Shown here: piece after piece, positions 12,986 to 63,230 of the stretch | How the letters are laid out: each line of letters starts with the position of its first letter | Numbering within the stretch: the stretch's first letter is position 1 | Assembly: GCF_963082655.1 (NCBI RefSeq) | Contig: NC_081556.1 | Span: 154,752,559-154,816,558 of the forward strand | Direction of reading: 5' to 3' | DNA: 64,000 nt | From: Stomoxys calcitrans | Lineage: Eukaryota > Arthropoda > Insecta > Diptera > Muscidae | Position numbers and translations under genes: made by a program | The notes under the pieces: generated by a model | What the model saw: only the letters and a program-made list of their open reading frames with translations | Databases searched by the model: none | What the model was told of the DNA's origin: nothing

Positions 12986-13011
12986 ATCCTTGGTAAAGGT
13001 TTTTTGCTCGC

Positions 13012-13048
<37 letters not shown>

Positions 13049-14706: not shown

Positions 14707-14911
14707 TTGTGCATACTTTTGGGCAGAAATCAGCAAAATTGTAATAACTACGACTCTATTAGGACATATATATCAGTGGTACATAAAAATTTAAATTTCG
14801 TGCACTTATGCTCTTTGTTTCGGTCGTTGTTGAGACGGCAACGAGTGAACATGTACACGGGAGTACGAAGCTTTTATCTGTTTTCCTTATTTAACGTTAG
14901 AAATAACCAAA

Positions 14912-25800: not shown

Positions 25801-28800
25801 TTCTAATGTTCTCGTCAGAATCCGAACCCAGGCGATCAGCGTCATAGACCGATATGCTAACCTTTGCGTTACAATTTCCATAAAAAGTGAATATACATGT
25901 AGTCGAAAATTCACATTAAAAAATAATTCTCATCTGAGATAAAAAATTTTGTAGAAATTAAATTGTTTACTTTAGTGGTTTCTTCCCCAAAGTGAAGTCG
26001 AGCTGAACTAAGTATGATATCATAAAAATATGGAAATTTTAAAATTTTTATCGAAATTTTAGATATTGATCGAAATTTAAAATTATTGTCGAATATTTAG
26101 TTTTTACCGAAACATCTTGTACGAGTAGACTTCTATTATAAAGGGTGATTTTTTTGAGGTTAGGATTTTCATGCATTAGTATTTGACAGATCACGTGGGA
26201 TTTCAGACATGGTGTCGAAGAGAAAGATGCTCAGTATGCTTTGACATTTCATCATGAATAGACTTACTAACGAGCAACGCTTGCAAATCATTGAATTCTA
26301 TTACCAAAATCAGTGTTCGGTTCGAAATGTGTTCAAATTTTGACAAATTTTGTTCAGCGATGAGGCTCATTTCTGGTTGAATGGCTACGTAAATAAGCAA
26401 AATTGCCGCATTTGGAGTGAAGAGCAACCAGAAGCCGTTCAAGAACTGCCCATGCATCCCGAAAAATGCACTGTTTGGTGTGGTTTGTACGCTGGTGGAA
26501 TCATTGGACCGTATTTTTTCAAAGATGCTGTTGGACGCAACGTTACGGTGAATGAACACATTTCGAACCGAACACTGATTTTGGTAATAAAATTCAATGA
26601 TTTGCAAGCGTTGCTTGTTAGTAAGTCTATTCATGATGAAATGTCAAAGCATACTGAGCATCTTTCTCTTTGACACCATGTCTGAAATCCCACGTGATCT
26701 GTCAAATACTAATGCATGAAAATCCTAACCTCAAAAAAATCACCCTTTAGTAACGAATTCCAACTTTCCTAAAACTTATCGAAACTAGGTATAAGATTCG
26801 GCGTCATTAACGAGCGATTCCCCCTTTTCAGCTACCAAGCAATCCAACAACTCAGCGACAGCAAGCAGCACTCCTAAAATAATCGAGACTAACCGCTCCA
26901 AACGTTTGCCACCTTCAGGATGCGATGACAATGGCTGTTTCATTCCCGATACCGAAGGAAGTTTGCCACCTATTGTTATAACGAAAGACGAAACTGGTTG
27001 TGATTTTGATTATAAAGATGTCGTAAATAACTATGATTTGGTATTGCGTTTACAAAAAGAAACCCTAAAATTTGCCGTGCAAAAAAATTTCTTTGTTTTT
27101 GTTAAAATAGTCAATTGTAAGTGGAGTCACATACACAACGCACCACCATAATTTCTAATTTTAACATTTCTTCTCTTTTATAGTAAAATGTTGTTTGAAT
27201 CGAACAGTGATTAACTTTACCACATGTGGCATGCATCATGTGGGCAATGATGAAATTATTATCCTTTTGGAATTCGAGCCACCAGCGTCAAAAGAAGAAG
27301 CTGCCGGCTCCGGGTTTTTAATACCACGTGATGTTTTCGTGCATTTGAATGAAATCTACAATAATGCCGAAGCCGGAAGTCCTATACAGGAATTGTCACA
27401 TACTAGCCCTCAACAGGGCACATTTTTGGGATCTCGCGATTATGGAGGTTTTATTTTCATTAGGCCCACGTTCCAGTGCATGCTTGATGTCATACAACCG
27501 GACAAACCCTATCTGATAGGGATATTGATACATCGCTTTGAAATTCCTTGGGCCAAAATATTCCCTTTGCGTTTGATGTTGCGATTGGGAGCCCAATATC
27601 GCTATTATCCTTGCCCACATGTGTCCATGTGCAATAGGGAATCGGTTTATGCTGAAATTGCTCAGACAATAATGGTGTTCTTGGCTGTAAGGAAAATAGT
27701 TCTTAAGTTTTAAGTTGCCTCAAATCTAATATTTTTTTGTGTTACAGGATTTCCGCAACTATACTTATACTCTGCCTTTCATAAGGGGTATGTACATCCA
27801 CATGGAAGATCGCCAGACTACGGTAGCCATTCCTCGCAATCGACTAGATGATGTGGTGAAAGCCATTAACAATTCCAGCGATCATATATTGGCTTTTGGT
27901 GGGAATTTTTCCAAAACTGCCGACGGTCATTTGGTGTGTATGCAAAATGTTAACGATGATCGAACAGAAATGTATGCTTACTCCACACAAGCCATCAACA
28001 TTCAGGGACAACCACGTAAAGGTTTGTAAAATGAATTGATAACTTTTTTTTTAAAGCTAAAATATTTATTCATTTTGATATCAGTCACCGGTGCTAGTTT
28101 CTTTCTTCTAAACGAGTCCTTAAAGCCCAGCAGTGGTCTTTCGGGAAAATGTAGTATTGTGGAGGATGGCCTTATGGTTCAAATATTGCCCTCACAAATG
28201 GCAGAAGTGCGTGAGTCACTGAAAAATCAAAAGGATGTCACAATTGTTTGCGGTCCCATAGGAGCTGATATTCATCAAACTGAAATTGTTTGCCTGAAAT
28301 GGGTGAACAATGATAAGGAGTTTAATATTGGGTAAAATAAAAAACTTTTAGTTTTGCTTTAAGAATGACTTAGCCTGAATAATTACAGGGTAAAATCGCC
28401 CATTGATGACCGTCTGATGGATGGCGTGTCGAGTATGCGAGTCCATGCCAGTTTCAACTATTCCAATTCGAATTATGCAATACGTTTAACGGACATATAT
28501 GTGATTCAGGTATGATTAATCCTATTATAAGAAGTGATTGACATTTTTGAACAAAGATTATGTAGTTTCATATACATTTTAATTTTCTAAAAAACTTTCG
28601 GTTAAAATTTTAATTTTCGGTTAAAATTTTAACTTTTTGAAAAGGTTTTTATTTTTCTTTCAATTCCCAAACAAAAGCTATTGGTTTTAGCTGGACAAAG
28701 ATGAGCAAAAACAAATTTAAATTGTCATCCACAATTTAAATTTTCGATCAAAATTAAATTTTTCGATAAAAATTAAATTTTTCGATAAAAATTAAATTTT

Positions 28801-31716
28801 TCGATAAAAATTATAATTTTCGATATGAATTAAATTTTTCGATAAAAATTTAATTTTTTGATAAGAACTAAATTTTTCGATAAAAACATTATTTTTCAAT
28901 AATTTTTTCGATAAAAATTAATTTTTTCGATAAAAATTATAATTTTTCGATAAATATTATAATTTTTCGATAAAAATTATGATTTTCGATATAAATTAAA
29001 TTTTTCGATAAAAATTAAATATTTTGATAAGAATTTAACTTTTTGAAAAAAATGTAATTTTTCAATAATTTTTTCGATCAAAATTAAATTTTTCGATAAA
29101 AAATTAATTTTTTTGATAAAAATTAAATTTTTCGATAAAAATTAATTTTTTTGATAAAAATTAAATTTTTCGATAACAATTTTTTTTTGATCAAAATGAA
29201 ATTTTTCGATAAATTTTTTTTTTTTTTGATAAAATTTTATTTTTTATTTTTCAATACAAAATTTAATTTTTTGATAAAATAATTTTCGACAAAAACTTAA
29301 TTTTCGATAAAAACCTTATTTTCGATTAAAATTTAAATTTTTCGATAAACATTTAATTTTTCTTAAAAATTCAATTATTTTAAAATTTTAATTTTTCGAT
29401 AAAAAGTTAATTTTTCGATAAAAATTTAATATTTCGATACAAATTTAATTTTTCGATAGCTATTTAATAAAATTTCGATAAAAATTCAAATTTACTATGA
29501 AACTAAAAATTTTGTTAAAAATTTCAATATTCTCCCTTGTTTTGTTGTTGTTTCATTAAACCAATCAATTTTTTTTAAGAATAGAAGAGAAAGGAATACA
29601 CGTTTTTTAAAAATATTTGGCAAAATGTGCTGTCGCAATATCTAATTAAATTTTCTTGAGATTCTATTGCAGGATATTGTCCGGCTTTAGACCTTTGTTT
29701 AATGCTTTCTATTCAAAGCAAAAGACATTTAAAAGTTAGCAAAAGTGTGTTTTTTTCTAGAAGCATTTGACTTGCTATCCGTATCGCGATTTAAATTTCA
29801 ACCAAGAAATATCATCAGCGGACGATTTCAAATGGATCATGGTGCTTTACATACCATCCCAACAAGAGTAGATTGTAAAGCACACATCTGAATTTGAATT
29901 TTCGATAAAAAAATGTAAATTTTCGATCCATATTCAATTTTGGATAATTGAAATTTTTGATGACAGTTTTATTTTCAATGACATTATTAATTTTCAATAT
30001 AAATTTAAAATTTCCAACAATTTTCCATAAAATTCCAATTTTTGATAACATTTCAATTTTCGATAAAAATTAAAATTTTCTATAAAAATTTCAATTTTCA
30101 ATAAAAATTTAAATTTTTGGTAAAAATTTCAATGTTCTATAAAAATTTTAATTTACTATTTTAAATTGTGGAAAAAATTTAATTTTTGTTAAAAATTAAA
30201 ATTTTAAATAAAATATTATATTTTTGATAAGAATGTAAACTCTCGGTAAAAATTAAAATTTTCGATAAAATTTTAAATTTTTCATATAATTTTAAAATTT
30301 TCGATTAAATTTAAAATTTTTGATAAAATTGTAAATTTTCGATAAAATTTTCAATTTTCGATAAAATTTTCAATTTTCGATAAAATTTTAAATTTTCGAT
30401 AAAATTATAAATTTTCTAAAAAATATAAAATTTTAGATAAATTTAAAATTTTCGATAAAATTTCAAATTTTTGATATAATTTTAAATTTTCGATAAAATT
30501 ATAAATTTTCGATAAAAGTATAGATTTTCTATAAAATTTTAAATTTTCTATAAAATTTAAAATTTTCTATAAAATTTAAAATTTTCTATAAAATTTAAAA
30601 TTTTCTATAAAATTTAAAATTTTCTATAAAATTAAAATTTTCGATAAAATTTAAAATTTTTGATAAAATTTAAAATTTTTGATAAATTTTTAAATTTTCG
30701 ATGTATTGTAAATTTGATAAAATTGTAAATTTTCGATAAAATTTTAAATTTTCTATAAAATTTGAAATTTTCGATAAAATTTTAAATTTTTGATAAAATT
30801 TTCGATTAAATTTGAAATTTTCGATAAAATATTAAATTTTCGATAAAATTTTACATTTTCGACAAAATTTTAAATTTTCGATAAAATTTGATACTTTCGA
30901 TAAAATTTTAAATTTACGATAAAATTTTGAATTTTCGATAACATTTACATTTTCGATAAAACTTTGATGTTCGATAAACATTTATTTTCTCAACTTTTGG
31001 TAAAAATTAAAAAATTTCAAATATTCCCTTCGTGGTATATTAGATCAATGGTTGGTTTGGTATGATGTTGCAAAATCTATTTCAATTTTCGATTAAAAAA
31101 ATATTCAATTCGATACTAAAAACTTTTCATCATAGTTTCATTTTTAATGACGATAGTTTAATTTTAATAAAAATTTATATTTTTATGCAAATTTATTTTT
31201 CGATATTCCTTTCGCCGTAAAAATTAATGTTTAGATAAAAACTTAATTTTCGAAAAAAAGTTTTTTTTAACTTTAATAATGTGTTTTATTAATTTATTAT
31301 TTTAAACAACTTCAGCATGCCGATTGGTATAATACAAATTCATCCACATTGAGTGCGTCCACCACCTCGGATGTAACACGAATGACCGAACAAATAGCCC
31401 GTAGTACATCAATGGCATTGGTGCCATTCCTAGATCTTTTGGCAGCGAGTAAAAGTACGAAAATTGGTTTAAGAGCCACTCTACACCAGGACAATGTAAG
31501 TATTTTAAAATTACGCATCAGAGATTACCTTGGAAATAAATTGTAAATACAATCTTCTTCTAGGTTTGTTATGAAGCTGGAGCTCGTGGCTCAAAATTAC
31601 CTCCTCTATATATGAATGCGCTTGATAACCATTTGATTCCTACCCTACATGATATCTCAGCAGGCATAGAGGAGGCCCTTATATTAGAACTAATCTTTTA
31701 CATATTAAATGTTTAG
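22878..31716 (+). CDS. Sara: Smad anchor for receptor activation (Sara), FYVE-domain endosomal protein
   Basis: An early-endosome adaptor that binds PI3P, recruits Smad/Mad to TGF-beta/BMP receptors and marks endosomes in asymmetric division. Eight exons join in frame: 22878-25437, 26832-27116, 27184-27686, 27748-28021, 28085-28331, 28389-28509, 31316-31495 and 31564-31716. All introns are GT-AG, giving 1440 residues with TAG at 31714-31716. The FYVE finger spans residues about 612-676, with WVPD, RRHHCRACG, four CxxC pairs and RVC, so PI3P-contacting residues are intact. KSVMF at residues 762-766 fits the RVxF docking motif for protein phosphatase 1, which binds Drosophila Sara. Exons 3-8 encode the conserved C-terminal SARA domain. 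The acidic, Ser-rich N-terminal ~600 residues are unstructured-looking. Intron 1 holds a SINE and a palindromic mariner; intron 6 (2.8 kb) is filled with AT-rich repeats. The gene is convergent with Fkbp14. The splice model is by eye. Confidence 0.94.
25660..25880 (-). mobile_element. tRNA-derived SINE, decayed copy in Sara intron 1
   Basis: The order on the plus strand is AAGCTCAATGATAAGG, then TTTTTACATGG, then a degenerate B box (GAATCCGAACCCAGG) and GCTAACCTTTGCGTTA, which is the reverse of the SINE at 17683. The middle CACGCCGTTCGG segment is deleted, so this is a shortened, older copy. Confidence 0.75.
26139..26749 (+). mobile_element. Palindromic mariner-type element in Sara intron 1
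   Basis: The ends read TAAAGGGTGATTTTTTTGAG and the inverse, with TA on both sides. The left arm 26139-26334 and right arm 26554-26749 are both 196 bp and near-identical inverted copies, each containing the transposase start (MNRLTNEQRLQIIEFYYQNQ on the left, MNRLTNKQR on the right). The 219-bp centre encodes FSDEAHFWLNGYVNKQNCRI and further catalytic-domain sequence, with the second catalytic Asp in SDE. The HTH-linker, first Asp and third Asp are missing. The natural 3' end has been replaced by a copy of the 5' end. Confidence 0.88.
28700..31010. repeat. AT-rich degenerate tandem repeat filling Sara intron 6
   Basis: The core word TTTTTCGATAAAAATTAA recurs, with a period of roughly 15-17 bp and many variants (AATTTTCTATAAAATTTAAA, AATTTTCGATAAAATTT). 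Density is highest at 28740-29470 and 29890-30990, with about 400 bp of ordinary intron between (29510-29890). CGAT is conserved while flanking A/T lengths drift. There is no ORF. Confidence 0.9.
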
Positions 31717-35839: not shown

Positions 35840-38800
35840 TTACAGCTCATCATGTTTGGGTCCCGAGAACTCATCATGGGAAATGAATCCATTCTTGTCC
35901 TTATCTTCATGTTGGAAGATTTCCTCTACCAACTTATCATTTTCCTTCAACATGTTCTTCAACTCATCCGAATCTTGGCCCTCCACGGCAGTCATTTGTT
36001 TCTTCAGATATTCACTGACCTATGATGGGATAGAGAGTTGTTGCAAAAAATATTTAATAAAAACAATTTTTCAAATTTTTATTTTCTTCTTAAAAAGTGC
36101 TCTTGTAATGATTTAGTGGTTAGTGCTACAATGAGTTGTTAGGGAGAAAAATAATTGTTTTTTTTTTTTGAGATAGTAACCATAGCCTTTTGTTGGGGGG
36201 GGGGTAATACAACACATAAATGAGTTGAACCAAACACCAATCAAACAAATTTGGACAAAATGAAAAAGTGCGATCCATACATAAAGGTTTACCTCTTCGC
36301 GACTCAATTGCTTATCGCCGTTATCATCGATCTCCTTGAAGACATTTGTGGTTGGGGGGCTGTTGCCAATGTTGATGAGCTCAACATCGAAGTGCAAAGT
36401 AGCCTTGGGTGGGATGACATTGCCAGCACCACGATCGCCGTAGCCCAACTCTGGAGGAATGGTAAGTTTACGTTTTTCACCTGTAATAAAATAATAAAAA
36501 AAATAAGATATCAAAATAAATAATAGAAGTTGGTTATAATGAAATTTATTAAAATAATAAATAAAAAAAATCCTTGAAATCAGCCTGGCCCATCACCTAT
36601 AAATCATACACCCATCGAATGAAGAAAATCTAATACTGCTATTTTAAACTTTGACAAAATCTGATTTAAGACTTAAAAATCTATGTGGCAGTTATAACTA
36701 GATATGACTTAGATTATATTCGGACGGGAGAAAATAGAGAAAACAAGTAAAAGTGTACTAAGTTCGGCCGGGCCACCCACCACCATGGATTCTACTAAAA
36801 CATGGGACTGTTACGACTTCCGCTAACTGCGCCAAGTACGGTCCAAGTCATTCTATAACCTGATATTGCTCCCATATAAACCCATCTCTCGATTATCCTT
36901 TTTCGTTTCGTAGAAGCTTTAATTTTTGCTGGTTTGACAGAAATTTGGTATATAGGATAAAATTATGCCCTTCAACTAAATTTATTTTTATAAATTATTT
37001 TTATAATAAGATAGTAGATTTGTATTCTACTCGCAAATACCTTTCATTTGAGTCCCATATTGCCATGGTCGGGTAATATGTCCGATTTGGGAGTGTTTTG
37101 GGGGTTGGGGTGGTCCGTCCCCCCTAACACTTGGTCCGACAATTGGATAGCAGATAAGTTTTCTTATCCTAAATACCTTTTATTTGAGTCCTATATTGTC
37201 GTGATTGGTCTTAATTGGTCTTAATATATATTTGATAGGTTTTGAAGTGGGGCGGCCAGCCTAGGTACCCCATTCGAAATTTGAATACCAAATTTTGAAT
37301 GGGGTATTATAAGAGAGCACACAAAATTTTGCTTAAATCGCACCACCCATCACCGAGATCTGGCATTTCTGAAAATTAGGGTAAGGGGGAGGGTCCGCCC
37401 CCTCTTTAAATATTAGAAAATGTACTACCCTATTTTCACCACGGGATCATTATGCACCATCTGTGAAAATTTCATGGAAATTAGTGTTCTATAAGGAACA
37501 CACAAACAAACATACAAATTTGGTTATACACCGATTTGGATCGTACTTGACACAGTTGTTGGAAGTTATAACAGAACACTATGTGCAAATTTTCAGCCAA
37601 ATCGGATACAAATTGAGGCTTCCAGGGGCTAAAGAAGTCAAATTGGGAGATGGGTTTATCTGGGAGTTATATCAGGTTCTTGACTGATTTAAACCGCACT
37701 CAACACAGTTGTTGGAAATCATAACAGAACACTATGTGCAAAATTTCAGCCAAATAGGATGAAAATTGAGGCTTCCAGGGGCTGAAGAAGTCAAGTCGGG
37801 AGATTGGTTTATATGGGAACTATATCAGGTTATAGACCGATTCGAACCGCACTCGACACAGTTGTTGGAAGTCATAACAGAACACTATGTGCAAAATTTC
37901 AGCCAAATCGGATGAAAATTGAGGCTTCCAGGGGCTCAAGAAGTCAAATCAGTTTATATGGGAGCTATATCTGGTTAGAGGCCGATTTGGACCGTACTTG
38001 ACACAGTTGTTGGAAGTCATAATACAAAATTTCAGTCAAATCGAATGAAAATTGCGGCTTACAGGGGCCCAATAAGTCAAATTGGGAGATCGGTTTATAT
38101 GGGAGCTATATCAAGTTCTTCACCGATTTGAACCGTACTTGGCACAGTTGTTGAAAGTCGTAACAGAACACAATGTGCAAAATTTCAGCCAAATCGGATA
38201 AAAATTCAGGCTTCCAGGGGCACAAGAAGTCAAATCGAGAAATTGGTTTATATGGGAGCTATATCCAAATCTGAACCGATATAGCCCATTTGTAATACCC
38301 AACGATCTACATCAATATTAAGTATCTGTGCGAAATTTCAAGTGGCTGACTTTACGCGTTCGACCCCTATCGTGATTTCGACAGACAGACGGACATGGCT
38401 AGATCGACTCAGGATTTCGAGACGATCAAGAATATATATACTTTATGCAGTTCTAGATCACTATTTCGAAGTGTTACAAACGGAATGACTAGATTAGTAT
38501 ACTAGATTAGTAGATTAGTATACCCCCATCCTATTTACAATCCCAACCGACTAATAAGAAGTATTTATGTAAAATTTCAAGCGCCTATCTTTACTCCTTC
38601 GAAAGTTAACGTGATTTCGACAGATCGACTTAAAATGACATGACGATCAAGAATATATTGGGTTGCCCAAAAAGTAATTGCGGATTTTTCATATAGTCGG
38701 CGTTGACAAATTTTTTCACAGCTTGTGACTCTGTAATTGCATTCTTTCTTCTGTCAGTTATCAGCTGTTACTTTTAGTTTGCTTTAGAAAAAAAGTGTAA

Positions 38801-40440
38801 AAAAAGTATATTTGATTAAAGTTCATTCTAAGTTTTATTAAAAATGCATTTACTTTCTTTTAAAAAATCCGCAATTACTTTTTGGGCAACTCAATATGTA
38901 CCTTATGGGGTCTTAGACGCATATTTCGAGGTGTTACAAATAGAATGACGAAATTAGTATACCCCCATCCTATGGTGGAGGGTATAAAAAACATTATATA
39001 TGTCACAAATTCTCTCAAGAACTTATCACAAAAATACATGTTCTTTTATCGTAAACAAAGTCCAGCGTTTTTAAGAAAAGAAGTTTACTTGGCGAAAGTT
39101 CCCTTTATGACAAACGAATTATTTTGTTTGCGTGTAGCTAAGAACAAAAAATATACCAGTATGAATGCACTAAAAAAAGCCGTTGTATAGCTTTCCTCTT
39201 TTTGACCGACTCAGAGCAAAAAGTGGTCGTATCGATCAAAAGTGAATGGGTTCTGAAATTTACATTACTTCCACAGATTTTTCTTTTGAATCAATAAACA
39301 AGTCAAAAGGCGCTAAGTTCGGCCAGGCCGAACTTTGGATATCCATCACCTAGGGGATATACTTAAACCACCTTTCCTTATAATCCTGTGAAAAATGCAT
39401 ACCTTATGGCCCATAGCAGCTATATCGAAATATATGCATTATAGATATGGCCATAGCAGCTATATCGAAGTCTATAATGCAGCTATATCCAAATCTGGAC
39501 CGATTTAGGCCAAATTGAAGAAGGATGCCGAAAGGCTTAACACAACTCACTGTTCCAAATTTTAGCAAAATCGGACAATAAATGCGCCTTTTATGGGCGC
39601 AAAGTCTTAAATCAAGAGATTGGTCTATATGGCAGCAATATCCAAATCTTGAAAGATCTGAGCCAAATTGAAGAAAAATGTCGAGTGGCCTAAAACAACT
39701 CACTGTCCCAAATTTCAGCAAAATCAGATAATAAATGTGGCTTTTATGGGCCTAAGACCCTACAACGGCGGATCGGTCTATATAACAGCTATATCTACAT
39801 CTGGACCGATCTGGGCCAAATTGAAGAAGAATGTCGAAGGGCCTAACGCAACTCACTGTCCTAAATTTTAGCAAAATCGGATGATAAATGTGGCTTTTAT
39901 GGGCCTTAGACCCTAAATCGGCGGATCGGTATATATGGGGCTATATCAAGACACAGTCCGATATAGCCCATCTTCGAACTTAACCTGCTTATGGACAAAA
40001 AAGAATTTGTGCAAAGTTTCAGCTCAATACCTCTATTTTTAAAGACCCACCCATCCATCCCTCGGTGGTGGGTATAAAAATTGTTTCACACAAATTAAAA
40101 AAATGTGGTCGTTTGAATTGGTACCACTTTGTGTGAGCTAAACTGTATTTATTTTATAAGTTTGCCAATGAATATTTCGAATAAGACCCCATCCTATGGT
40201 GCTGGTGGTTCTAAATTTAATAAAAATATTTTTAAATAATACTGTGTATTTAAAATATTAAAAATTTGCGTTGTATATCAATGAAGAAGACATTTGACTT
40301 TTGAAGTTCCATAGAGCATTTTCAGCAATATTTGAATTTACTCGTACTTACCAACACACATATCGACTAGACCTTGATCCCAGCCTTTAATCACTTGTCC
40401 AGCACCCAATTGGAAGGTAAATGGTTGGTCACGATCCAAA
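35840..40440 (-). CDS. Fkbp14: FK506-binding ER peptidyl-prolyl isomerase, last three exons
   Basis: An ER-lumen prolyl cis-trans isomerase with calcium-binding EF hands, acting in secretory-protein folding; in Drosophila it is known to affect Notch and presenilin levels. Exons, in coding order: 40352-40440, 36293-36480 and 35840-36019, with GT-AG junctions that keep frame. The first visible exon encodes the FKBP core ([16 protein letters not shown]). The next adds [18 protein letters not shown] and the start of EF hand 1 ([12 protein letters not shown]). The last gives EF hand 2 ([12 protein letters not shown]) and ends in HDEL, the ER retrieval signal, then TAA at 35840-35842. The signal peptide and the N-terminal FKBP strand(s) are not in view: no matching exon was found from 40441 to 64000. 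The intron 36481-40351 holds A1 and A2 repeats and a MITE. A broken copy of the last exon lies at 34285-34440. Confidence 0.95.
36743..38530 (+). repeat. Family A2 dispersed repeat, copy 2, with inserted family C segment
   Basis: The head CTAAGTTCGGCCGGGCCACC is at about 36768. Units with GGTTTATATGGGAGCTATAT, ACACAGTTGTTGGAAGTCAT and GGCTTCCAGGGGC are repeated at least four times from 37520 to 38290. The GACAGACGGACATGGCTAGA block is at 38380. Segment 36955-37450 does not match and is family C (see 50631). The element lies in the Fkbp14 intron, antisense to it. Confidence 0.7.
38531..38990 (+). repeat. Family A2 3' fragment interrupted by a MITE
   Basis: The tail module GATGACGATCAAGAATATA...TGTACCTTATGGGGTC is split at TA by the mariner MITE 38657-38896, then resumes to CATCCTATGGTGGAGGGTAT. 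This gives an order of events: A2 first, MITE later. Confidence 0.75.
38657..38896 (+). mobile_element. Mariner-type MITE, copy 2, complete
   Basis: Terminal inverted repeats ATTGGGTTGCCCAAAAAGTA and its inverse TACTTTTTGGGCAACTCAAT lie at the two ends, extending to GCGGATTTTT on both sides. The TA target is duplicated. The interior contains TTCACAGCTTGTGACTCTG and GTCAGTTATCAGCTGTTAC. It is about 240 bp with no ORF. Confidence 0.88.
39299..40080 (+). repeat. Family A1 dispersed repeat, copy 2
   Basis: The head is CTAAGTTCGGCCAGGCCGAA and the tail CTCGGTGGTGGGTATAAAAA. Three internal units carry GGCCTAA..CAACTCACTGT. The stretch before the tail lacks the GACAGACGGACGG block present in other copies, pointing to a small deletion near 40045. 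It sits in the Fkbp14 intron. Confidence 0.78.
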
Positions 40441-41416
40441 CTAAAAATAAATCACAAAAAGAAAAATGAAACAATTAGAATGGGAAACCAAAAAAACACA
40501 CACACACACACACACACAAAAGTCCTTATAAAACCCTAAACAATTCAACAAGCACCTGAAATGCTCTTACACAAATGAAAAGTCTAACAGCACTCCACTT
40601 AAAACGTATGTTCATCATTTTTAAGCCTTTTAATGCCCACGAATCGTGTGTGAACAATCCATCATTTGGTAGAGCAAAGTAAAAAACGAATGAATGAATT
40701 CAACCAAAGGCTTTCGTACACAGAATGTTGCTTTAGCAGCAGCTACCAAGGCACAAACATTTTGTGTTTCTTTAAATATTCAAAAAGGTCTGGAGTAAGC
40801 GCGAATTGCAAAACTTTTTAAATGTGAGATTATTAAAAATTAGCAATTTGGGGATACGTATTGGGGAATTGTCCTCACTTTTTTTCCCAAAGGACTTGCA
40901 AAATGGTTGTTTTAGTATTTTGTTATTAATTGTATTTTATGTTGTTTATATCATTTTGTATGTTTGATGTTACAATCTTAAAATATAATGTGGACCTCTT
41001 TAGCAAAAGAGCAGGACTCACTCAAAAGTGTTTGTTTGCAATACGTCTTCCCCAACCGTCTAATGATGCCTAAACAAATGACACACGGGGGTAAATAAAA
41101 AATTATTATCATAACTTGAACAACTTATCACAGGCTAGTGAAGTGCGCGAGTACACGAGTGCTGCGGGAGGAAATAGCAACGAGACATGTAAATGTTTCC
41201 TTAACATTGTAATGTCCCCATGGACATGATGAGGCTGTTGTACGATGCTGGTTTGCATCAATTTACAAAGTCGTTTAGCTTAAAGAGAATTTCGAAAAAA
41301 AATGTGGGAACGCAGTAGGAATAGCGTAAACAAGCGAGATTCGGTCCTCTATTTAAATTCAAAAGAAATGATGAGCAAAAACATTTTTGTGCACAAAAAT
41401 TTTGCAAAAAAAAAAA
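40441..41416. other. Upstream Fkbp14 intron or flank, no exon found
   Basis: There is a strong acceptor for the 40352-40440 exon at 40441 (minus strand TTTTTAG). A (CA)n tract lies at 40495-40518. I searched both here and onward for the N-terminal FKBP sequence and signal peptide and saw none. Confidence 0.35.
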
Positions 41417-42615
41417 ACAAATAAAAAGGCGTTAAGTTCGGCCGGGTCGAACTTTGGATACTTACCACCTCGGGTATATATGCAAACCATCTTTCGTTAC
41501 AATCCGGTGAAAATTAGCTAATTTATGCACCCAAATTCGGAACGGATATTGAGTTGTCAAAAAAAAAAAATAAATCACTGTTCAATTTTAAACAGTATTG
41601 GTCTTTTTGGAAGCTATAACCAAAAAAAAAAATCCGATCTGAACCATATAGGACAGTGATGTCGAAAAGCCTAACATAAGTCGCTGAGTCAAATTTCAGC
41701 GAAATCCGATTATAAATGAGCCTTTTATGGGCCCAAGACCATTAATCAAGAGATCGATCTATATGGCAGCTATATCAAAATCTGAACCGATCTGGGCCAA
41801 ATTGAAGAAGAATGCCAAAGGGCCTAACACAACTTACTGTCCCAAAATTCGGTGAAATCGGACAAAAAATGCGCCTTTTAACGGCCCAAAACCTTGAATC
41901 GAGACATCGGTCTATAAGGCAGCTATATCCAAAATCTGAACCGATCTTAACCAAATTGCAGAGTGATGTCGAGGGGCCTAACACAACTCACTGTCCCAAA
42001 TTTCCGCGAAATCGGACAATAAATGCGCTTTTTATGGGCCCAAGGCTATAACTAAATTTGGGCCAAATTTGATAAGGATGTCGAAGGGCCTAACACAACT
42101 CAATGTCCCAAATTTTGGCAAAATCGGACAATAAATGCGCTTTTTATGGGCGCAAGACCTTAGATCGAGAGATCGGTCTTTATCGCAGCTATATCCAAAA
42201 ATGGACCGATCTGGGCCAAATTGAAGAAGCATGTCAGCCTAACACAAATCACTGTCCCAAATTTCAACAAAATCGGATAATGTGGCTTTTATGGGCATAA
42301 GACCCTAAATCGGCGGATCGGTATATATGGGAGCTATATCAAGATATAGTCCTATATAGCCCATCTTTAAACATAACCTGCTTATGGAAAAAAGAATCTG
42401 TGCAAAGTTTCAGTTCAATATCTCTATTTTTAAAGACTGCAGCGTGATTTCAACAGACAAGCGGACAGACGGACGGACATGGCTAGATCGTCTTAGATTT
42501 TTACGAAGATCAAGAATATATATACTTTATAGGGTCGGAAATGGATATTTCGATATGTTGCAAACGGAATGACAAAATGAATATACCCCCATCCTTCGGT
42601 GGTGGGTATAAAAAA
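41417..42615 (+). repeat. Family A1 dispersed repeat, copy 3, most complete
   Basis: The head TTAAGTTCGGCCGGGTCGAA is followed by TACTTACCACCTCGGG. The tail has AGCGGACAGACGGACGGACA, GGCTAGATCGTCTTAGATTT and CTTCGGTGGTGGGTATAAAA. Four or more internal units each have GGGCCAAATTGAAGAAG and CCTAACACAACTCACTGTCC. This copy is a good reference for the family. Confidence 0.8.
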
Positions 42616-46490: not shown

Positions 46491-46675
46491 AGTAATTGCG
46501 GATTTTTTAAAAGAAAGTAAATGCATTTTTAATAAAACTTAGAATGAACTTTAATCAAATATACTAAAGCAAGCTAAAAGTAACAGCTGATAACTGACAG
46601 AAGGAAGAATGCAATTACAGAATCACAAGCTGTGAAAAAATTTGTCAACGCCGACTATTTGGGGGCAACCCAATA
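46475..46675 (-). mobile_element. Mariner-type MITE, copy 3, reverse orientation
   Basis: It starts ATTGGGTTGCCCAAAAAGTA then AAAAGAAAGTAAATGCATTT, and ends GGGGGCAACCCAAT, the reverse of copy 2. The right-hand terminal repeat is shortened (the AAAAAGTAATTGCGG part is missing), and the TTTTA array starts at its edge. Confidence 0.85.
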
Positions 46676-47070
46676 TTTTATTTTATTTTGTTTTATTTTA
46701 TTTTATTTTATTTTATTTTATTTTATTTTATTTTATTTTATTTTATTTTATTTTATTTTATTTTATTTTATTTTATTTTATTTTATTTTATTTTATTTTA
46801 TTTTATTTTATTTTATTTTATTTTATTTTATTTTATTTTATTTTATTTTATTTTATTTTATTTTATTTTATTTTATTTTATTTTATTTTATTTTATTTTA
46901 TTTTATTTTATTTTATTTTATTTTATTTTATTTTATTTTACTTTATTTTATTTTATTTTATTTTATTTTATTTTATTTTATTTTATTTTATTTTATTTTA
47001 TTTTATTTTATTTTATTTTATTTTATTTTATTTTATTTTATTTTATTTTATTTTATTTTATTTTATTTTA
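46675..47070. repeat. TTTTA pentanucleotide array, about 79 units
   Basis: TTTTA is repeated without break from about 46675 to 47070. The only variants I see are one TTTTG near the start and one CTTTA near 46941. Because 5 and 3 are coprime and TTTTA contains no in-frame stop in this strand, all three plus-strand frames stay open (Phe-Tyr-Phe-Ile-Leu repeats). These ORFs are artefacts. Confidence 0.97.
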
Positions 47071-49540
47071 TTTATCTGTATTTTATTTTTAATGTATCTT
47101 TTATTTTGCTCGCCCTTTATTATTTTTAAATTCCTCTCTGGTTTTCACTGTCCCATTTTACAAATCTCTCCCTCAAGAGAGACATTCAAGTACAACGAGG
47201 GGTTACTACGATGCAAAAACAAACCCCAACAAATATGATGGCTTGAATTGGTATCTTTTTTTAATGCCATGCTAGATTTTTTTTATTGAGATTGTGCAAA
47301 TGCATATCTAATTTTATGCGTATTCGGTGGCAAATGCTCTCCTATATGATGCTCACTCTTGGTGTGGTTGTTATTGTAACGCTGTGGGTTTTATTATCAT
47401 CTGAAAATCTTTGGAAGCTTTTCCGCATATCAGAATTTATGGGTTTTATATTAATACTCGGTGTGTATATCGAGACATTGATTTATGATAATCAAAGATG
47501 ATAATTGTTATTGTTAAACATACACACACACTCACACGCGCACAAAACATAGATACAGGTTGTTGTTTTTAAGCGGACTTCATTTTCTTTCTATAAAACA
47601 TTATAATTTAGTGGGAGCTGAGGCATTGGAGCTGTCAGTACTGGTGATAAAGAAATATGACGGCAAAGCGAGAGGATAAGATTAGATTTTATATTTAAAC
47701 TTTTGTAAGGCTTTGTTGGTGTAGAAAAATGTTAGATATAATTAGTAAAATTCTTAATAGAAATTCAATTATTGTTGAAAATTTCGTAATAATCGAAGTT
47801 TAGTGGCAAATTTTGTCAAAACTTGAATTTCATAGAATATCAGCTAAACCCAGCTTAGCCTTCTTCTACAATACGCCATATAAAAAAATTTGCAAATTTT
47901 GGCCAAATTTGATTGAGAAAATTTGATTTTCTTTGAAATTATTTTATGTAAAATCACAGTCAAAATTGTATTTACAGAGAATGTTTTGCTGAAATTTTCT
48001 TTTTAGACAAATTATTCAAATATTTCTTTTTTTTTTTTGAAAATATAGGATATTGCGATTTAAATCTCTTGCAACCATTTGACTTTAATTCGTTTATCCA
48101 AAGATTCGTTGAGGGCTTTCATACCTTTTACCGGAATTAATTTGTTATTGATGGTGCCGATGAATGTTTAATGGTCGTGTAAACAGTTAATTGGATTGTC
48201 ACATTTCCCACTCTGCAAATATTTACAAGTTTGGGAAAAACAATGCCAACTGGGTAGAAGGCAGGAAGACAGGCTGTATGACGTATGCAATATGAATGAG
48301 ATTCCATCACGATGATGATGATATCCATCACTCCATCACAGCAGCTATGCTACACCATGATGTATATGAAGTAACCAAAAATCGACAGGTGCTGCAACTG
48401 ATGATGGTGGTGACATATAAAGTTGTGAGCTTTTTTTCAACTTGTTTTGAAGTCTGTTCACATATGTATACACCGATAAGTTTAAATGCCACAAAAATCA
48501 TTGAGTAGGAAATGCCCATAATCATCAGCTCACGATATAAAAGCATGCTTAACTCTGGATGAGTTATCTTAAAAATTGGATCAAGCTCCAAAATAAGACT
48601 AAACAAACAAAGACCAATCACAAAACATGTTTTGTCTATTAGCAACTTGTTGTCTTTGACTCTGGTTTTCTTGGTAAACTCTTGTATATGATACCATTTT
48701 CAAAGACCACAACAAATGCCACCAACCAACAGTTTTAGCTTAAAAGCTTTGCCATTTGGGGAAATAATGTGGCTTGTCATTAAGTCCATCAATGCTATAC
48801 CTTTGGTAAGTTAAGTTATGAGCTGTGATACCTGAAGAGGGTCAATAAACTCATGGATGAGTTGACTTTCACTGTACTCGTATTTATGAGTCCTTAACGT
48901 ACTATACTGTTGCCCAAAAGAAATCATTTATAACGCCAGACCCCCTCAAAATGCATCACCCATGACAATGTATCTTTAAGATATAAACGGCATTCCCATC
49001 CTCTACTCATGCCACATATAACTCATGCAAGGACTGTAAGTGGTGAAATTTTGAAAATTAACTTGAATAATGTTTGCAGGCATTTGATGGTAGAAAACTG
49101 CATAAAAAACACGTACTACAACTACAGCATCCGACAATGAAGACCACACAGCACCATCGGTTACATAAAAGCCCAAAGAGTGTCTGTAACTGTGTATGAT
49201 TAAAGTTGTCTGGCCAAGAGACAAGAAATATGACCAACTTTTTTAGCGACTGGCAAAGTGCAGCGAACAAACCAATTTAATAAAATTTAATTAAAAATAA
49301 AATTTTAACAAAACATTTTACTGAAATAATTAAATAAATAAAGAAAAATGCCAAATAAATATACACAAAATTGTTTAAGAAATAAAATATTCCAAAAATT
49401 TTTCTATATAAGAAAATTTAACAAATTTTGCTATAAAAAAAAATGTTAACAACATTTCCCAGAAAATTTTCAAGAAAAAAAATTTTAAATCTTTTATAGA
49501 AAAAATTTTTAAAGAAAAAAATTCTATAGAATTAAAGGCA
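47071..49540. other. No recognised gene
   Basis: An open minus-strand stretch at 48645-48328 is hydrophobic (for example YSMIFVAFKLIGVYICEQ), and a plus-strand stretch at 47286-47501 also is. Neither matches a family I can name, and neither has convincing splice partners. The rest is AT-rich. Confidence 0.3.
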
Positions 49541-54030: not shown

Positions 54031-56010
54031 GTAGTTTAAGAACCCTTTCACAAAGGGATAGGCAGTCCCTCGAAGAAAGGGATAGTCTAAGTACAATTTC
54101 CTTGGAAAGGGATATTTTTAGTACACTTTCCCTAAGAAAGGGATAGTTTTATTACACTTACCCTTAGAAAGCGATAGTTTTTGTACACTTTCCCTTTTTT
54201 TAGGGCACTTTCCTTACTTTTAGTACACTTTAGCATACTAAGGGGTACTTTGAGCATACTTAAGCAAAGGAAAGGATAGTTTTAGTACACATTCCCCAAC
54301 GAAGGGTGTACTTTTGGTACAGGAAGAGGTAGTTTTAGTACACTTTCCCAAACGAAGGGGTATTTTTTAGTGCACTTTAGCAAAAGAAGGAGTTGTTTTT
54401 GTACAATTTCTCAAAGGAAGCACCAGTTTTAGTACACTTTCCCAAAGGAAGGGGTAGTTTTAGCAAACTTTCCCAAAGAAATAGATAGTTTTAGTACACT
54501 TTCGGAAAGGGAGAAGAAGTTTAAATACACTTTCCCAAAGGGAGGACCAGTTTTATTGCACTTTCCCAAAGGATGGAGTAGTTTTAGTACACTTTTCAAA
54601 AGGAAGGAGTAGTTTTAGTACACTTTTCCAAAGGAATGAGTAGTGTTTTATTACATTTCTCCGAAGGAAGGGGTAGTTTTAGTATACTTTCCCGAAGTAA
54701 TGGGTAGTTTTAGTACACTTTCCCTATGGAAGGGGTAGTTTTAGTACACTTTCTCAAATTAAGGAGTACTTTTAGTACACTTTTCCAAACGAAGGGGTAC
54801 TTTTAGTACACTTTAGCAAAGTAAGGAGAACTTTAAGCATACTGAAGCAAAAGAAAGGGTAGTTTTAGTACACTTTCCCGAACGAAGGCGTACATTTGGT
54901 ACACTTTTCTAAACGAAGGGGTACTTTTAGTACACTTTGCCAAAGGAAGGGGTAGTTTAACGGCACATTCACGAACGAAAGGTTTTTTTAGTACACTTTC
55001 CCGAACGAAGTCGTACTTTTGGTACACTTTTCTAAACGAAGGAGTATTTTTAGTACACTTTGCCAAAGGAAGGGGTAGTTTAAAAGCGCATTCCCGAACG
55101 AAGGGGTATTTTTTTTAGTACACTTTAGAAAAGGAAGGGGTAGTTTTAGTACAATTTTCCAAAGGAGGGAAGAGTTTTAGTACATTTTCCCGAAGGAAGT
55201 AGTAGTTTCAGTACACTTTACCAAAGGAAGGAGTAGTGTTTTTGTGCAATTTCTCAAAGGAAGGGGTAGCTTTAGTATACTTTGCGAAGGAAAGGGTAGT
55301 TTTACTATACTTTGCGAAGGAAAGGGTAGTTTTAGTATATTTTCGCAAAGGAAAAAGAAGTTTGAGTATACCTTGCCGAAGGAAAGGATAGTTTCAATAT
55401 TCTTTCTCAAGAGAATAAGTTTTAGTACACATACCCAAAGGAAGAAGTGGTTTTAGTACACTTTCCCAAAGTACCAGTTTTAATGCACTTTCCCAAAGGG
55501 CCAGTTTTAGTACACTTTACCAATGGAAGGAGTAGTGTTTTAGTGCACTTTCCCAAAGGAAGGGGTAGTTTTAGCAAACTTTTTCAAAGAAAGGGATAAT
55601 TTTAGTACACTTTCCCAAAAGAAGAAGAAGTTTTGGTACACTTCCCAAAAGGAAGAAGTGGTTTTAGTATACTTTCACAAAGTAAAGTCCAGTTTTAGTA
55701 CTGTTTCCCAAAGGAGGGACCAGTTTTAGTGCACTTTCCCAAAGGAAGGTGTAGTTTTTTTGCACTTTCCCAAAGGAAGGAGTAGTTTTAGTACATATTC
55801 CCAAAGAAAGGAATACTCTTACTACACTTTCCCAAAGAAAGGAGTAGTTTTAGTATACTTTCTCAAAGTAAGGAGTAGTTTTAGAACACTTTCCCAAAGG
55901 AATAGGAACCTTTAGTAGAGTTTCCCATAGGACTTGGTACACTTTCCCAAAGGAATGGCTACTTTTAGTACACTTTCCCACAGGAATTGGTAGTTTTAGG
56001 AATAGGTACT
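54030..56010. repeat. Two-kilobase degenerate minisatellite
   Basis: The unit is about 30 bp with consensus CCCAAAGGAAGGGGTAGTTT followed by TAGTACACTTTC. Roughly 60 units are present, with many substitutions and small indels. Local higher-order similarity is visible: 54840-54980 resembles 54990-55110. Open frames on both strands (for example 54833-55066 and 55177-55410) are by-products. Confidence 0.92.
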
Positions 56011-57318: not shown

Positions 57319-58802
57319 CGTCGCACAGTGGGCCAAATGGCAAAAAAATTGGAAATAAGTCTACAACTTTTTATCTGTTGATTTTAGCCATACAAAATGT
57401 TCTAGACATTTGTAGAGGAGGACATAGGCTTTCAGAAAAGTGCTGTTGTTGGTCCATATCTTTAATACAGGGTGAGCTACAGGGTGTCAAAGTTGACCAC
57501 TTTTGACTTCTCCAAGCTTCTGGGGGCCATAACTTTTGATCTACTCAACCGATTTACATGATTTAGGACTCTAGAGAAAGAGCTTGACAAGATCTAAAAA
57601 ACTTATGCATAAAGTACCATGCCATCGTGTACTGTTAAGGAGTTATGAATTGTTTAATTTTAAAATATGAAAATTTGGCCTTGGTTTTTTTCAGTGTTTT
57701 TTTAATAACTCCGTCAATTTAAAAGCTATAAACTTCATACTTCACACAAATTATGCCAGCATATGTGTGCATAAAATACAAAAGGAATCACGTGAATATC
57801 TTTGGCGGTTTAAAAATGGCATCGTTTTCAATATGAAAAATATTTTTTTTGTCAAAAAATTGCAAAATTTTTCAAAAAAGATACTCCCATTTCCTTTAAG
57901 TTTTCGCAAACTTTGGCCGTCAAAGCATTATCATTTCTTTCCATTTTCACAAAGTCGAGGTATTAAGAAAAGTTTTAAGTGCTAATTTGGCTAATTTCGA
58001 TATCAAACAACACCGTTATCTTAAGACCAAAATGGCCAATTTTTTTACTAAACTTCAAAAGTTTCTCACTGGAAAAAAAGTTCCACGGGGATTTTTTCGC
58101 TTTTTTTGAACTTAAATGAAAGCTTAAAATGTTCCCAACATTTTAAGGTATGTCTCGCCATATCCTAGCCATAAATGAGATCGTAGCGATCAAAATACTG
58201 AAAAAAGTCAATTTTCAAGTAGTGCTATATTCATTGCTAAAAAACAAGTATTACGTCACATTTTATTGCAAAGATGTTAAATAAACTTTTATTTGGTAAC
58301 ACTTCTTCTACAAAACACAAAAAGAATCATGGAAATATCTCTATTCTATTCCATTTTATGGAACCGGCAATAAAAAAGTCAATTTTTCAAAAAAGTCGAA
58401 TTTCCCAAATTTTGTTTTTGTTGTCCTAATTGCACATGACACACTATAGCCATATTTACGCAACATACCTTATCGTAAAGGAAATTTTCATACCTTTCCA
58501 ACGATGTATAAAACATTTCTCAACTCGGATTCTATCTACTCTAAAATTCATTTACACTTCATTAAACTCTATATAAAAATGTCTATTTGTGAAATGGAAC
58601 CTTATATGGGGCCTACACTAAAACATTGATAGATTTGCCCAGGGTTTACAATACAAATGTGTTAGAATAAAAAAAGGTCTCCTGCCAAAGTTTAAAAAAA
58701 TTGGAATAAAAATATGTGTTTTAGAGCGAAAACACTTCGCATCGGCGTGCGTTTATATGTATATTAGCTACTCCCAAAATAAAAAAGCATTTTAGTTTTG
58801 TA

Positions 58803-59207
58803 TTATTTGATTTTATTCTCTACCAAATAATCTAAGGTATCAAAATTTAAAAGCTCTTTAATTTGAATGGCATCGGGATCGTCCTTATCTATATCGTCAC
58901 ATATTTTTGGTAGCCATTTAGTTCTGATGCTGTATAGTACCGGATCAGACGATAACAATAAATATTGAAGTAAATCATAATTTTGGTTAAATTTGGTGCT
59001 CTTTCGGGTATTGAAAAGCCGGAACTGTTTAACATCTCTATTACGGGATTCCTGAGCTTCTTCTGTAAGTTCTCCTAACGGAAGTATGTTGTATTCCACA
59101 ATTTCCTTGCCATGATGTAAGACTTTATGTACTGTCGGTGTTAAAGCTTTCCACGAATATAAATCAGATAAAATGTTTTTTGTGTCATTACTATAAGCTT
59201 CAAATTT
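58803..59207 (-). pseudogene. Mirror copy of the Transib transposase C-terminus
   Basis: The minus strand encodes the same 134 or so final residues as the plus copy (from KFEAYSNDTKNILSDLYSWK to VENKIK, stop at 58803-58805), including the final Glu. Upstream of 59207 it runs into antisense of the centre. Having the 3' coding end on both arms proves the inversion duplicated the transposase C-terminus together with the terminal repeat. Confidence 0.92.
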
Positions 59208-60274
59208 CTGGGTCAAAATATTTATGTCGCCCAATTCGGTTTGAGTATACAAAGGAAGACCGGAACACAACACGATCTTTGGTGAACGAAATAAAGGAAG
59301 AAATTGCTGCATTACCCATGATTGTTATAAACCAATTGGGAAGAAATATAAAAGTTTCGTTTCAACTACAACTCACTATGATCGATGGAAAGGTGGCAAA
59401 CGCATTAACTGGCGTTATGTCCAATTGGAGATGCAATATTTGTGGCAAGAAGAATGGGCAATTCGAGGACAAGTCTGATGAAAATTTAGTAAACGAAAAT
59501 GCGCTCAATTTCGGTATTTCGCCCCTGCACTGTAGAATTCGATTCATGGAGTATTGTTTGCATTTATCGTATGACCTTAAATATCGGACTAGCCCTGGAA
59601 ACCGCGATGTCTCTGCTAGAAACAACCAAGATCTTCACAAAATGAGGCAGGAAGAGAAGAATCGAATCCAGTTGGAGTTTAAACAAAAGGGACTTATAAT
59701 AGATAAACCTCTTTACGGATACGGAAGCACAAATGATGGCAACTCGGCAAGGCGGTTTTTTGAGGACCCCGTATCGACATCTAAAATAACCGGTCTTGAT
59801 GAACACTTGCTAAGACGATTCAAAGTGATTTTGGCTGTAATCAATAGCAAAAAGATGATAAATTCAACCAAATTTGAAGCTTATAGTAATGACACAAAAA
59901 ACATTTTATCTGATTTATATTCGTGGAAAGCTTTAACACCGACAGTACATAAAGTCTTACATCATGGCAAGGAAATTGTGGAATACAACATACTTCCGTT
60001 AGGAGAACTTACAGAAGAAGCTCAGGAATCCCGTAATAGAGATGTTAAACAGTTCCGGCTTTTCAATACCCGAAAGAGCACCAAATTTAACCAAAATTAT
60101 GATTTACTTCAATATTTATTGTTATCGTCTGATCCGGTACTATACAGCATCAGAACTAAATGGCTACCAAAAATATGTGACGATATAGATAAGGACGATC
60201 CCGATGCCATTCAAATTAAAGAGCTTTTAAATTTTGATACCTTAGATTATTTGGTAGAGAATAAAATCAAATAA
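59208..60274 (+). pseudogene. Transib transposase, C-terminal part (RAG1 core-like)
   Basis: The open frame continues to TAA at 60272-60274. From 59208 it reads a RAG1-related catalytic core. TMIDGKV (Asp codon 59384-59386) corresponds to the second catalytic Asp. It is followed by the zinc pair CNIC, FGISPLHCRIRFMEY, then NDGNSARRFFE, TPTVHKVLHHGKEIV, and LTEEAQESRNRD with the last catalytic Glu at 60026-60028. The region with the first Asp is absent. The frame runs open upstream to an ATG at 59138 within the left arm, but those first ~24 residues are antisense arm sequence and not native. Named from resemblance to Transib/RAG1 core motifs; on its own it should not be catalytically complete. 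Confidence 0.9.
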
Positions 60275-61758
60275 TACAAAACTAAAATGCTTTTTTATTT
60301 TGGGAGTAGCTAATATACATATAAACGCACGCCGATGCGAAGTGTTTTCGCTCTAAAACACATATTTTTATTCCAATTTTTTTAAACTTTGGCAGGAGAC
60401 CTTTTTTTATTCTAACACATTTGTATTGTAAACCCTGGGCAAATCTATCAATGTTTTAGTGTAGGCCCCATATAAGGTTCCATTTCACAAATAGACATTT
60501 TTATATAGAGTTTAATGAAGTGTAAATGAATTTTAGAGTAGATAGAATCCGAGTTGAGAAATGTTTTATACATTGTTGGAAAGGTATGAAAATTTCCTTT
60601 ACGATAAGGTATGTTGCGTAAATATGGCTATAGTGTGTCATGTGCAATTAGGACAACAAAAACAAAATTTGGGAAATTCGACTTTTTTGAAAAATTGACT
60701 TTTTTATTGCCGGTTCCATAAAATGGAATAGAATAGAGATATTTCCATGATTCTTTTTGTGTTTTGTAGAAGAAGTGTTACCAAATAAAAGTTTATTTAA
60801 CATCTTTGCAATAAAATGTGACGTAATACTTGTTTTTTAGCAATGAATATAGCACTACTTGAAAATTGACTTTTTTCAGTATTTTGATCGCTACGATCTC
60901 ATTTATGGCTAGGATATGGCGAGACATACCTTAAAATGTTGGGAACATTTTAAGCTTTCATTTAAGTTCAAAAAAAGCGAAAAAATCCCCGTGGAACTTT
61001 TTTTCCAGTGAGAAACTTTTGAAGTTTAGTAAAAAAATTGGCCATTTTGGTCTTAAGATAACGGTGTTGTTTGATATCGAAATTAGCCAAATTAGCACTT
61101 AAAACTTTTCTTAATACCTCGACTTTGTGAAAATGGAAAGAAATGATAATGCTTTGACGGCCAAAGTTTGCGAAAACTTAAAGGAAATGGGAGTATCTTT
61201 TTTGAAAAATTTTGCAATTTTTTGACAAAAAAAATATTTTTCATATTGAAAACGATGCCATTTTTAAACCGCCAAAGATATTCACGTGATTCCTTTTGTA
61301 TTTTATGCACACATATGCTGGCATAATTTGTGTGAAGTATGAAGTTTATAGCTTTTAAATTGACGGAGTTATTAAAAAAACACTGAAAAAAACCAAGGCC
61401 AAATTTTCATATTTTAAAATTAAACAATTCATAACTCCTTAACAGTACACGATGGCATGGTACTTTATGCATAAGTTTTTTAGATCTTGTCAAGCTCTTT
61501 CTCTAGAGTCCTAAATCATGTAAATCGGTTGAGTAGATCAAAAGTTATGGCCCCCAGAAGCTTGGAGAAGTCAAAAGTGGTCAACTTTGACACCCTGTAG
61601 CTCACCCTGTATTAAAGATATGGACCAACAACAGCACTTTTCTGAAAGCCTATGTCCTCCTCTACAAATGTCTAGAACATTTTGTATGGCTAAAATCAAC
61701 AGATAAAAAGTTGTAGACTTATTTCCAATTTTTTTGCCATTTGGCCCACTGTGCGTCG

Positions 61759-62414
61759 GCAAGTGGAAAACTTGGACACTTTAGTTGTTCCATCACTTTA
61801 ACACTTTACACCAGCCTCCTTCAACTACTCTTCTGTTACCCAACTTTGGCAAAGTTTGTTGCGAGCAGCAGCAATTGCAAGACGATATATTCACATTTTG
61901 CCAACGACACGTACATTCACGAAACGTTTGGAAATGAATAAAGAAGAGCACAAGGTTTTTTAGCGTTATTGCTTTGAATCCTTTAAATTATTCAAAATAT
62001 TTTGTGATTATATGCTCAATGTAAGGCTGAGGGGGACTTCACTATGGGTTGGGAAACTCAACAACGAAACATCTTGGCTGTTGGGCAATAAGCAGAAAAG
62101 CTATAAATGCCAAACCATGTATCTTCCTACAAGGTTTGTTATCCTAGCTAGATGCTCGGTAGACACCATATGTGAAGAGAAGACTTCTTTAAGATTATAC
62201 TTGTAATAAAAAAGTAGCCGTTTTGGTTATTTTTAACATTTCACTCGCGATGTTGTTTTTTCTTTTTTGTCTTAAAAAAATAATGTGTCTGCCTGCAATT
62301 GTAAATGTCGGAGGAAATTCAAGAAGGCTCTTAGGGAGAAAATTCCTGTTGGAATTGTTTAAATCTTTAATTGAGGGATTTCTTTTAATTCAAATTACTA
62401 ACTTAATATGAACA
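61759..62414. other. No recognised gene
   Basis: Just outside the right Transib target copy. The sequence is unremarkable, with one short open stretch at 62012-62206 that shows no family features. Confidence 0.3.
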
Positions 62415-63230
62415 AGTAAAACGGCATTAAGTTCGGCCGGGTCGAACCTTGGATACCCACTACCTCGAGTATATATGTAAATCCCAATTTGTCACAATCC
62501 GGTGAAAATTGGAAAATTGAAAGCACCCAAATTCGGCACGGACATTGAGTGGTCTAATATATATGTCACTATTCAATTTTGTAGAATAAAAGATTGGTCT
62601 TTTTGGCAGATATATCCAATTATAAACCGATCTGAACCATATTAAGGTCGGATGTTGGGAGGTCTTAACCTATTCACTTTTTCAAATTTCAGCGAAACCG
62701 GATAATAACTAAAGCTTTTATGGGTTTCAGTCCTCTTATTGGCAGATCGGTCTATATGACAGCAATATCTAAATATAGTCCGATCTGAACTATATTTTGG
62801 TCGGAAATTGAGATGCTTATAACTGCCCACTATTCTTAATTTCAGCGAAATCGGATAATAAATAAAGCTTTTATGGGCTTCAGACCCTTTATAGGCAAAT
62901 CGGTCTATATGGCAGCTATGTCTAAATATAGTCCGATCTGAACCATATTTAGGTCGGGAGTCAGGAGGCTTAAAATAACCCACTTTTTAAAAAATAAGGC
63001 AAAATCGGTTAAAAAAATAAAGCTTTTATGGGCTTCAGACCCTTTATCCGCTGATCGGTCTATATGACAGCTATATCTAAATATAGTCCCATCAGAACCA
63101 TATTTCGGTAAGATGTTAGGAGGTCTTAACCTACTCACTTTTTCAAATTTCAACGAAATCGGGTAATAAATAAAGCTTTTATGGGCTTCAGACCCTTTAT
63201 CGGCAGATCGGTCTATATGTCATAGAAAAG
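62415..63230 (+). repeat. Family A1 dispersed repeat, copy 4, tail missing
   Basis: The head ATTAAGTTCGGCCGGGTCGA, then GATACCCACTACCTCGAGTA. The units have GATCGGTCTATATGACAGC, AATATAGTCCGATCTGAAC and AATAAAGCTTTTATGGGCTT, a sub-type distinct from copies 1-3. It stops near 63225 without the GGTGGGTATA tail. Confidence 0.75.

Follow-up and report, generated by a model that had tools for sequence, protein, structure and literature searches.

A near-perfect Transib palindrome with the same terminus at both ends and a CGTCG target-site duplication in Stomoxys calcitrans

We analyzed a 64,000-nt stretch of the Stomoxys calcitrans genome (NCBI RefSeq assembly GCF_963082655.1, contig NC_081556.1, positions 154,752,559 to 154,816,558 of the forward strand), hereafter called the window and numbered from its first letter. 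Near its right end lies an inverted repeat of ∼4.4 kb (57324-61753), in which two 1884-bp arms surround a center of 662 bp and both ends carry a CACAGTG heptamer resembling that of V(D)J recombination signals. Judged by its coding sequence, the element is Transib-derived. We consider it probable that it is a non-autonomous inverted-duplication derivative, i.e., a palindrome with two 3′ ends that arose by aberrant repair or template switching and was then inserted as a unit by transposase supplied in trans.

The palindrome is nearly perfect. The left arm (57324-59207) is the reverse complement of the right arm (59870-61753) at 1883 of 1884 positions, the sole mismatch being G at 58503 against the complement of position 60574; the center between them (59208-59869) is non-palindromic. 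On the plus strand the element reads CACAGTG...CACTGTG, and the pentamer CGTCG stands on either side of it, at 57319-57323 and 61754-61758. Past the heptamer the inverted match goes on for two bases only, the CG of the CGTCG duplication. Since the match stops two bases outside the heptamer and inside the duplication, the boundary of the palindrome is the boundary of the transposon. The flanks outside the element are not inverted copies of one another. The preliminary description of this locus, made from the letters alone, had claimed V(D)J-like heptamers at both ends, a perfect CGTCG duplication and near-perfect inverted 1884-bp arms around a 662-bp center; all three were borne out.

The heptamer by itself is not rare: CACAGTG occurs seven times on the two strands of the window, the two element ends included, and about eight occurrences are expected. 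What is rare is its coincidence with the ends of an 1884-bp inverted repeat. The probability that two random flanking 5-mers agree is ∼0.0013, and the probability that both are CGTCG, given the local base composition, is ∼1.4e-7. The first 20 and the first 30 bases of the terminus had no other match in the window at up to 25% mismatches, blastn of the arm and the center against the rest of the window returned matches of 29 bp or less, and the arms contain no internal repeat above a 25-bp match. A chance origin was rejected for an inverted repeat of 1884 bp with a single mismatch.

The left terminus (57324-57351, plus strand) consists of CACAGTG, 12 bp and an A-rich block, AAAAAATTG, and the right terminus (61726-61753, minus strand) is the same. 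Read against the layout of a recombination signal sequence (RSS) (PMC8355894), an A-rich block 12 bp after the heptamer is 12-spacer-like, with weak resemblance to the nonamer. A 12/23 RSS pair was rejected because the two ends are identical (arms paired at 1883/1884); both being the same end, there is no spacer asymmetry at this locus. Both symmetric spacers and 12/23 asymmetry have been described among Transib families (PMC8355894), and the V(D)J resemblance seen here does not go beyond what is ordinary for Transib. Terminal inverted repeats that start with CAC and resemble the heptamer, as in Transib, are represented by CACAGTG at both ends. The target-site duplication is likewise of the Transib type: five bp long and palindromic, CGTCG being CG-N-CG with its halves mirrored about the central base. 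Target duplications of RAG and Transib are in general 5 bp (PMC7204232); miniature inverted-repeat transposable elements of Transib have targets of the form CNNNG and terminal repeats of 13-27 bp (PMC7764229); and for hopper and transib2, also with 5-bp targets, CCANTGG motifs are given (PMC3276498). CGTCG differs from the hopper motif in its letters but agrees with it in length and symmetry. Short terminal repeats, a typical Transib feature though not part of a strict definition, are replaced here by arms of 1884 bp.

Next, we examined the coding content. A 378-residue open reading frame (ORF) at 59138-60271, which spans the center, matched the structure of the HzTransib transposase (6pqn) at E = 1e-59 over query residues 28-341. 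Of 1961 candidates in the protein search, 118 were related at E ≤1e-3, and the best of them had 68% identity over 93% of the query. These matches upheld the Transib identity that had been proposed from the letters. Organisms were named for 11 of the 118 relatives, every one an insect, from ten genera (Eumeta, Colias, Temnothorax, Osmia, Linepithema, Stomoxys, Lucilia, Uroleucon, Rhagoletis, and Anthonomus). What survives, according to the 6pqn match and the alignment, is the C-terminal portion of a RAG1-core-like DDE transposase of the Transib type together with its stop codon (59208-60274, plus strand). Between this stop and the terminus, 60275-61753 is ∼1.48 kb of non-coding DNA with no ORF of at least 80 amino acids (aa). 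The element as a whole holds no ORF of at least 80 aa beyond its transposase ORFs; a RAG2-like gene was not specifically sought.

Alignment with seven relatives located the point at which the gene is broken. Protein homology begins at GSKYLCRPIRFEY, right after base 59207, and the open frame itself begins upstream at 59069, in antisense sequence of the arm. The N-terminal part missing by comparison with relatives of ∼650 residues (e.g., P0007) amounts to ∼300 residues. The catalytic motifs of a complete Transib transposase are D, D, and E. The segment KWGCDG, whose aspartate we take to be the first catalytic residue of RAG1 and Transib, is absent from the element when aligned with its relatives; MIDGK and GELTEEAQE are present. 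The codon of the MIDGK aspartate (59384-59386) falls in the center, and the GELTEEAQE segment falls in the arm, so that it is present twice, once on each strand. Its mirror copy lies in a minus-strand ORF (58803-59312) in which 134 codons of the transposase C-terminal segment follow 35 codons antisense to the center. A complete transposase was rejected because the N-terminal part with the KWGCDG region is missing. With that part goes the first catalytic-type aspartate motif, for which reason the element should be non-autonomous.

At the internal junction (59207/59208) the inverted copy meets the sense gene with no filler and no evident microhomology. All seven relatives have proline immediately before the G of GSKYL. 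In the element, the codon at this place is TCT, its T contributed by the inverted arm and its CT by the gene, and a codon split in this way between arm and gene indicates a direct join. From the protein comparison we infer that a base was lost at the junction. The left arm, on the minus strand, is the inverted copy of the 3′ half of the element (the 3′ end of the transposase coding sequence, ∼1.48 kb of non-coding DNA and the terminal repeat). The center carries the sense coding sequence from GSKYLCRPIRFEY on, and the right arm, on the plus strand, is the original 3′ half, with the coding end to 60274 and non-coding DNA from there to the terminus. Both ends are the same (3′) end, an inverted copy of the right half having replaced the left half and, presumably, its terminus. 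Of the "giant palindromic Transib" proposed in the preliminary description, the palindrome and the Transib origin stood. As a description of the element it was incomplete: in the alignment the gene is broken, with an inverted duplication of the 3′ half in place of its 5′ part and the same end present twice.

The following course of events would account for this structure. While an autonomous Transib copy was being repaired or replicated aberrantly, the growing strand would have switched at gene position 59208 onto the opposite strand at 59870, a switch across 662 bp, and the last 1884 bp would then have been copied back outward from 59870. This step would have removed the 5′ part of the gene together with the left terminus of the parent copy, leaving a palindrome bounded by two 3′ termini. 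We infer that the finished palindrome was afterward cut and pasted as a unit by a Transib transposase acting in trans, which would have produced the clean CGTCG duplication. Non-inverted flanks are what one expects if the palindrome arrived as a unit, and the clean 5-bp duplication between unrelated flanks fits cut-and-paste arrival of a finished palindrome. With one mismatch between its arms, the palindrome must be either young or still subject to gene conversion. At an insect mutation rate of a few times 10^-9 per base and generation, the mismatch corresponds to an age of the order of 10^5 generations, with a wide error.

Several points weigh against this interpretation. The match to the Pfam RAG1 model PF12940 was below threshold (19.5 vs. 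25 bits), and the truncated ORF gave no match to PF26100, a domain annotated in 45 of the 118 relatives. No second palindromic copy was found in the 64-kb window. The loss of the left end is deduced from the gene rather than by comparison with a parent element. Mobilization might fail with two identical ends if this family has and needs asymmetric 12/23-type ends, as are known from some Transib families (PMC8355894). Finally, with a single locus it is not possible to tell whether the palindrome arrived as such or was formed at the site.

Formation in place is the main rival, and we regard it as possible but on balance unlikely. Here an ordinary Transib would have inserted first, with CGTCG made at that time, and would have become palindromic at the site by gap repair after excision: copying from a sister or homologous template would have switched inside the gene and terminated by way of the homology that the short terminal repeats share. 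By this route, too, the duplication and the internal junction would look as they do, and there is a precedent in the P superfamily, where gap repair that aborts, slips or switches template is described as a source of defective copies (PMC4168063). Against it, the second tract of copying would have to stop precisely at the left terminus and be joined to the left flank again with nothing lost. Joining of hairpin flank ends is usually imprecise, which also counts against formation in place. Hairpins are the form in which RAG-type chemistry leaves the flank ends (PMC8355894).

If the palindrome did move as such, Transib can transpose in nature with one kind of end present twice, a result that would bear on the evolution of symmetric vs. 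asymmetric (12/23-type) end pairs. The element may also matter as a source of RNA. If it is transcribed through, a hairpin RNA against the transposase message of the family is predicted to form, as proposed for the maize locus Mu killer, and the locus would then be a test case, in an animal, of a transposon silenced by an inverted derivative of itself. A bolder proposal combines the two: a palindromic Transib lineage that transposes by means of two identical 3′ ends and suppresses, through hairpin RNA, the autonomous family to which it belongs, as a RAG1-type equivalent of Mu killer in an animal. We think this improbable.

Less probable still is the functional claim, compatible with either origin, that the palindrome has been kept because its hairpin RNA silences an active Transib family. 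The architecture matches the description of Mu killer (PMC3440606), the arms would pair at 1883 of 1884 positions, and hairpin-RNA loci that silence selfish genes have been reported in Drosophila simulans (PMC10292708, PMC10317233). However, recent origin alone explains near-identical arms, and with the 5′ side of the gene lost, transcription would probably have to enter from a flank. No transcription unit across the element was evident among the eight ORFs scanned for domains outside it (the window holds 32 stop-to-stop ORFs of at least 110 aa; the 22 left out include 62645-62986, right of the element), and the nearest scanned match was an FKBP exon ∼20 kb to the left. For Mu killer itself, a new model has been proposed in which the small RNAs come from antisense transcripts that are not long enough to form a large hairpin (PMC3440606); hairpin silencing is therefore not to be assumed from structure.

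An assembly or library artefact (a fold-back read or a chimera) that produced a false palindrome is the least likely of these explanations: it would suit a single copy whose arms are identical but for one base, but that one base does differ, a fold-back would be expected to mirror the flank too, and two different flanks with a matching 5-bp Transib-type duplication would be left unexplained.

We also searched for other copies and for precedents. The transposase ORF gave 10 pattern stretches in viral_contigs, none confirmed; profile A2 gave 78 stretches in viral_contigs and 63 in genome_contigs, again with none confirmed; and the exact 29-base terminus was not found in viral_contigs. These collections are viral or prokaryotic, and records close to the genome of the window may be excluded from them, so that absence means little; a lack of relatives in viral and prokaryotic collections is expected for an insect element. 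The minus-strand ORF, in which residues 1-34 of 168 are antisense to the center, was used as a second protein query to reveal other palindromic copies; nine of 41 candidates matched, and the widest match extended over 80% of the query. In a local BLASTP of this ORF against the retrieved proteins, the 30 rows with the earliest starts included two that began at query residue 1 (P0039 and P0057, 36-38% identity), one at residue 6, five at residue 13, and two at residue 14. We read these early-start alignments as chance extensions in relatives with an ordinary gene and not as palindromes, a weak test in that it did not extend to inspection of the residues. In the literature on Transib repeats, palindromes, foldback forms, inverted duplications and hairpins, none of the titles and abstract openings listed, with most subscription journals outside the scope, described a palindromic Transib, and no paper came up that joins the inverted duplication of a DNA transposon to template switching in gap repair. 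The available portion of the paper on Bari elements (PMC4877112) describes no palindromic form.

The window also holds tandem repeats outside the element. An array of diverged tandem copies of 1.7 kb (54215-55999) ends ∼1.3 kb to the left of the element, and a tandem block at 62411-63219 begins ∼650 bp to its right. The latter belongs to a dispersed family of blocks (also 14909-15995, 39293-40046, and 41412-42352) that are ∼70-87% alike. A very AT-rich array at 28713-30990, in which GC falls to 12% in a 1-kb window, has diverged units ∼72-84% alike among the rows listed. The stretch 46674-47107 (∼430 bp) is a nearly pure 5-bp tandem repeat, with FILFY-type peptides in all three plus-strand frames. 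Two adjacent 318-bp direct copies with one mismatch (6703-7337) represent a recent tandem duplication. Host gene pieces were found at 561-1787 (a carboxylesterase exon), 8117-13051 (a protein tyrosine phosphatase gene), 22866-27710 (the SARA gene, FYVE), and 36116-36592 (the FKBP exon).

Compared with known systems, the element shares with Transib (HzTransib, and hopper and transib2 of Drosophila) the transposase family, the CAC-type heptamer ends and the 5-bp palindromic duplication. Transib elsewhere has short repeats; here a single terminus makes up both ends in copies of 1884 bp, the gene lacks its 5′ part, and its 3′ coding end occurs once in each orientation. With V(D)J signals and RAG1 it has in common the CACAGTG heptamer, the A-rich block after 12 bp, a related nuclease and the weak PF12940 match; it differs in having the same spacing at both ends, with no 12/23 asymmetry, and a poor match to the nonamer. 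Long terminal repeats as such are not new, since very long terminal inverted repeats are seen in the foldback-like DNA transposons of flies, such as Galileo of the P superfamily and Tetris (PMC4168063, PMC4079207). Galileo is a multi-copy family whose longest copy has additional repetitive regions in its long repeats (PMC4168063); in contrast, the arms here carry transposase coding sequence, have no internal repeats of the kind, and belong to a single known copy. The closest precedent is Mu killer, an inverted-duplication derivative of MuDR in maize that silences its family (PMC3440606). Mu killer is internally deleted, with a partial inverted duplication of the transposase gene and both termini derived from one end, and the center of the locus resisted sequencing (PMC3440606). 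The Stomoxys element likewise has a partial inverted duplication of its transposase gene between two termini of one kind. The transposon is Mutator in one case and Transib, a RAG1 relative, in the other; the host is a plant in one and an insect in the other; and it is the 3′ end of the gene that is duplicated here. Mu killer silences its family, and for the Stomoxys palindrome silencing is a prediction by analogy.
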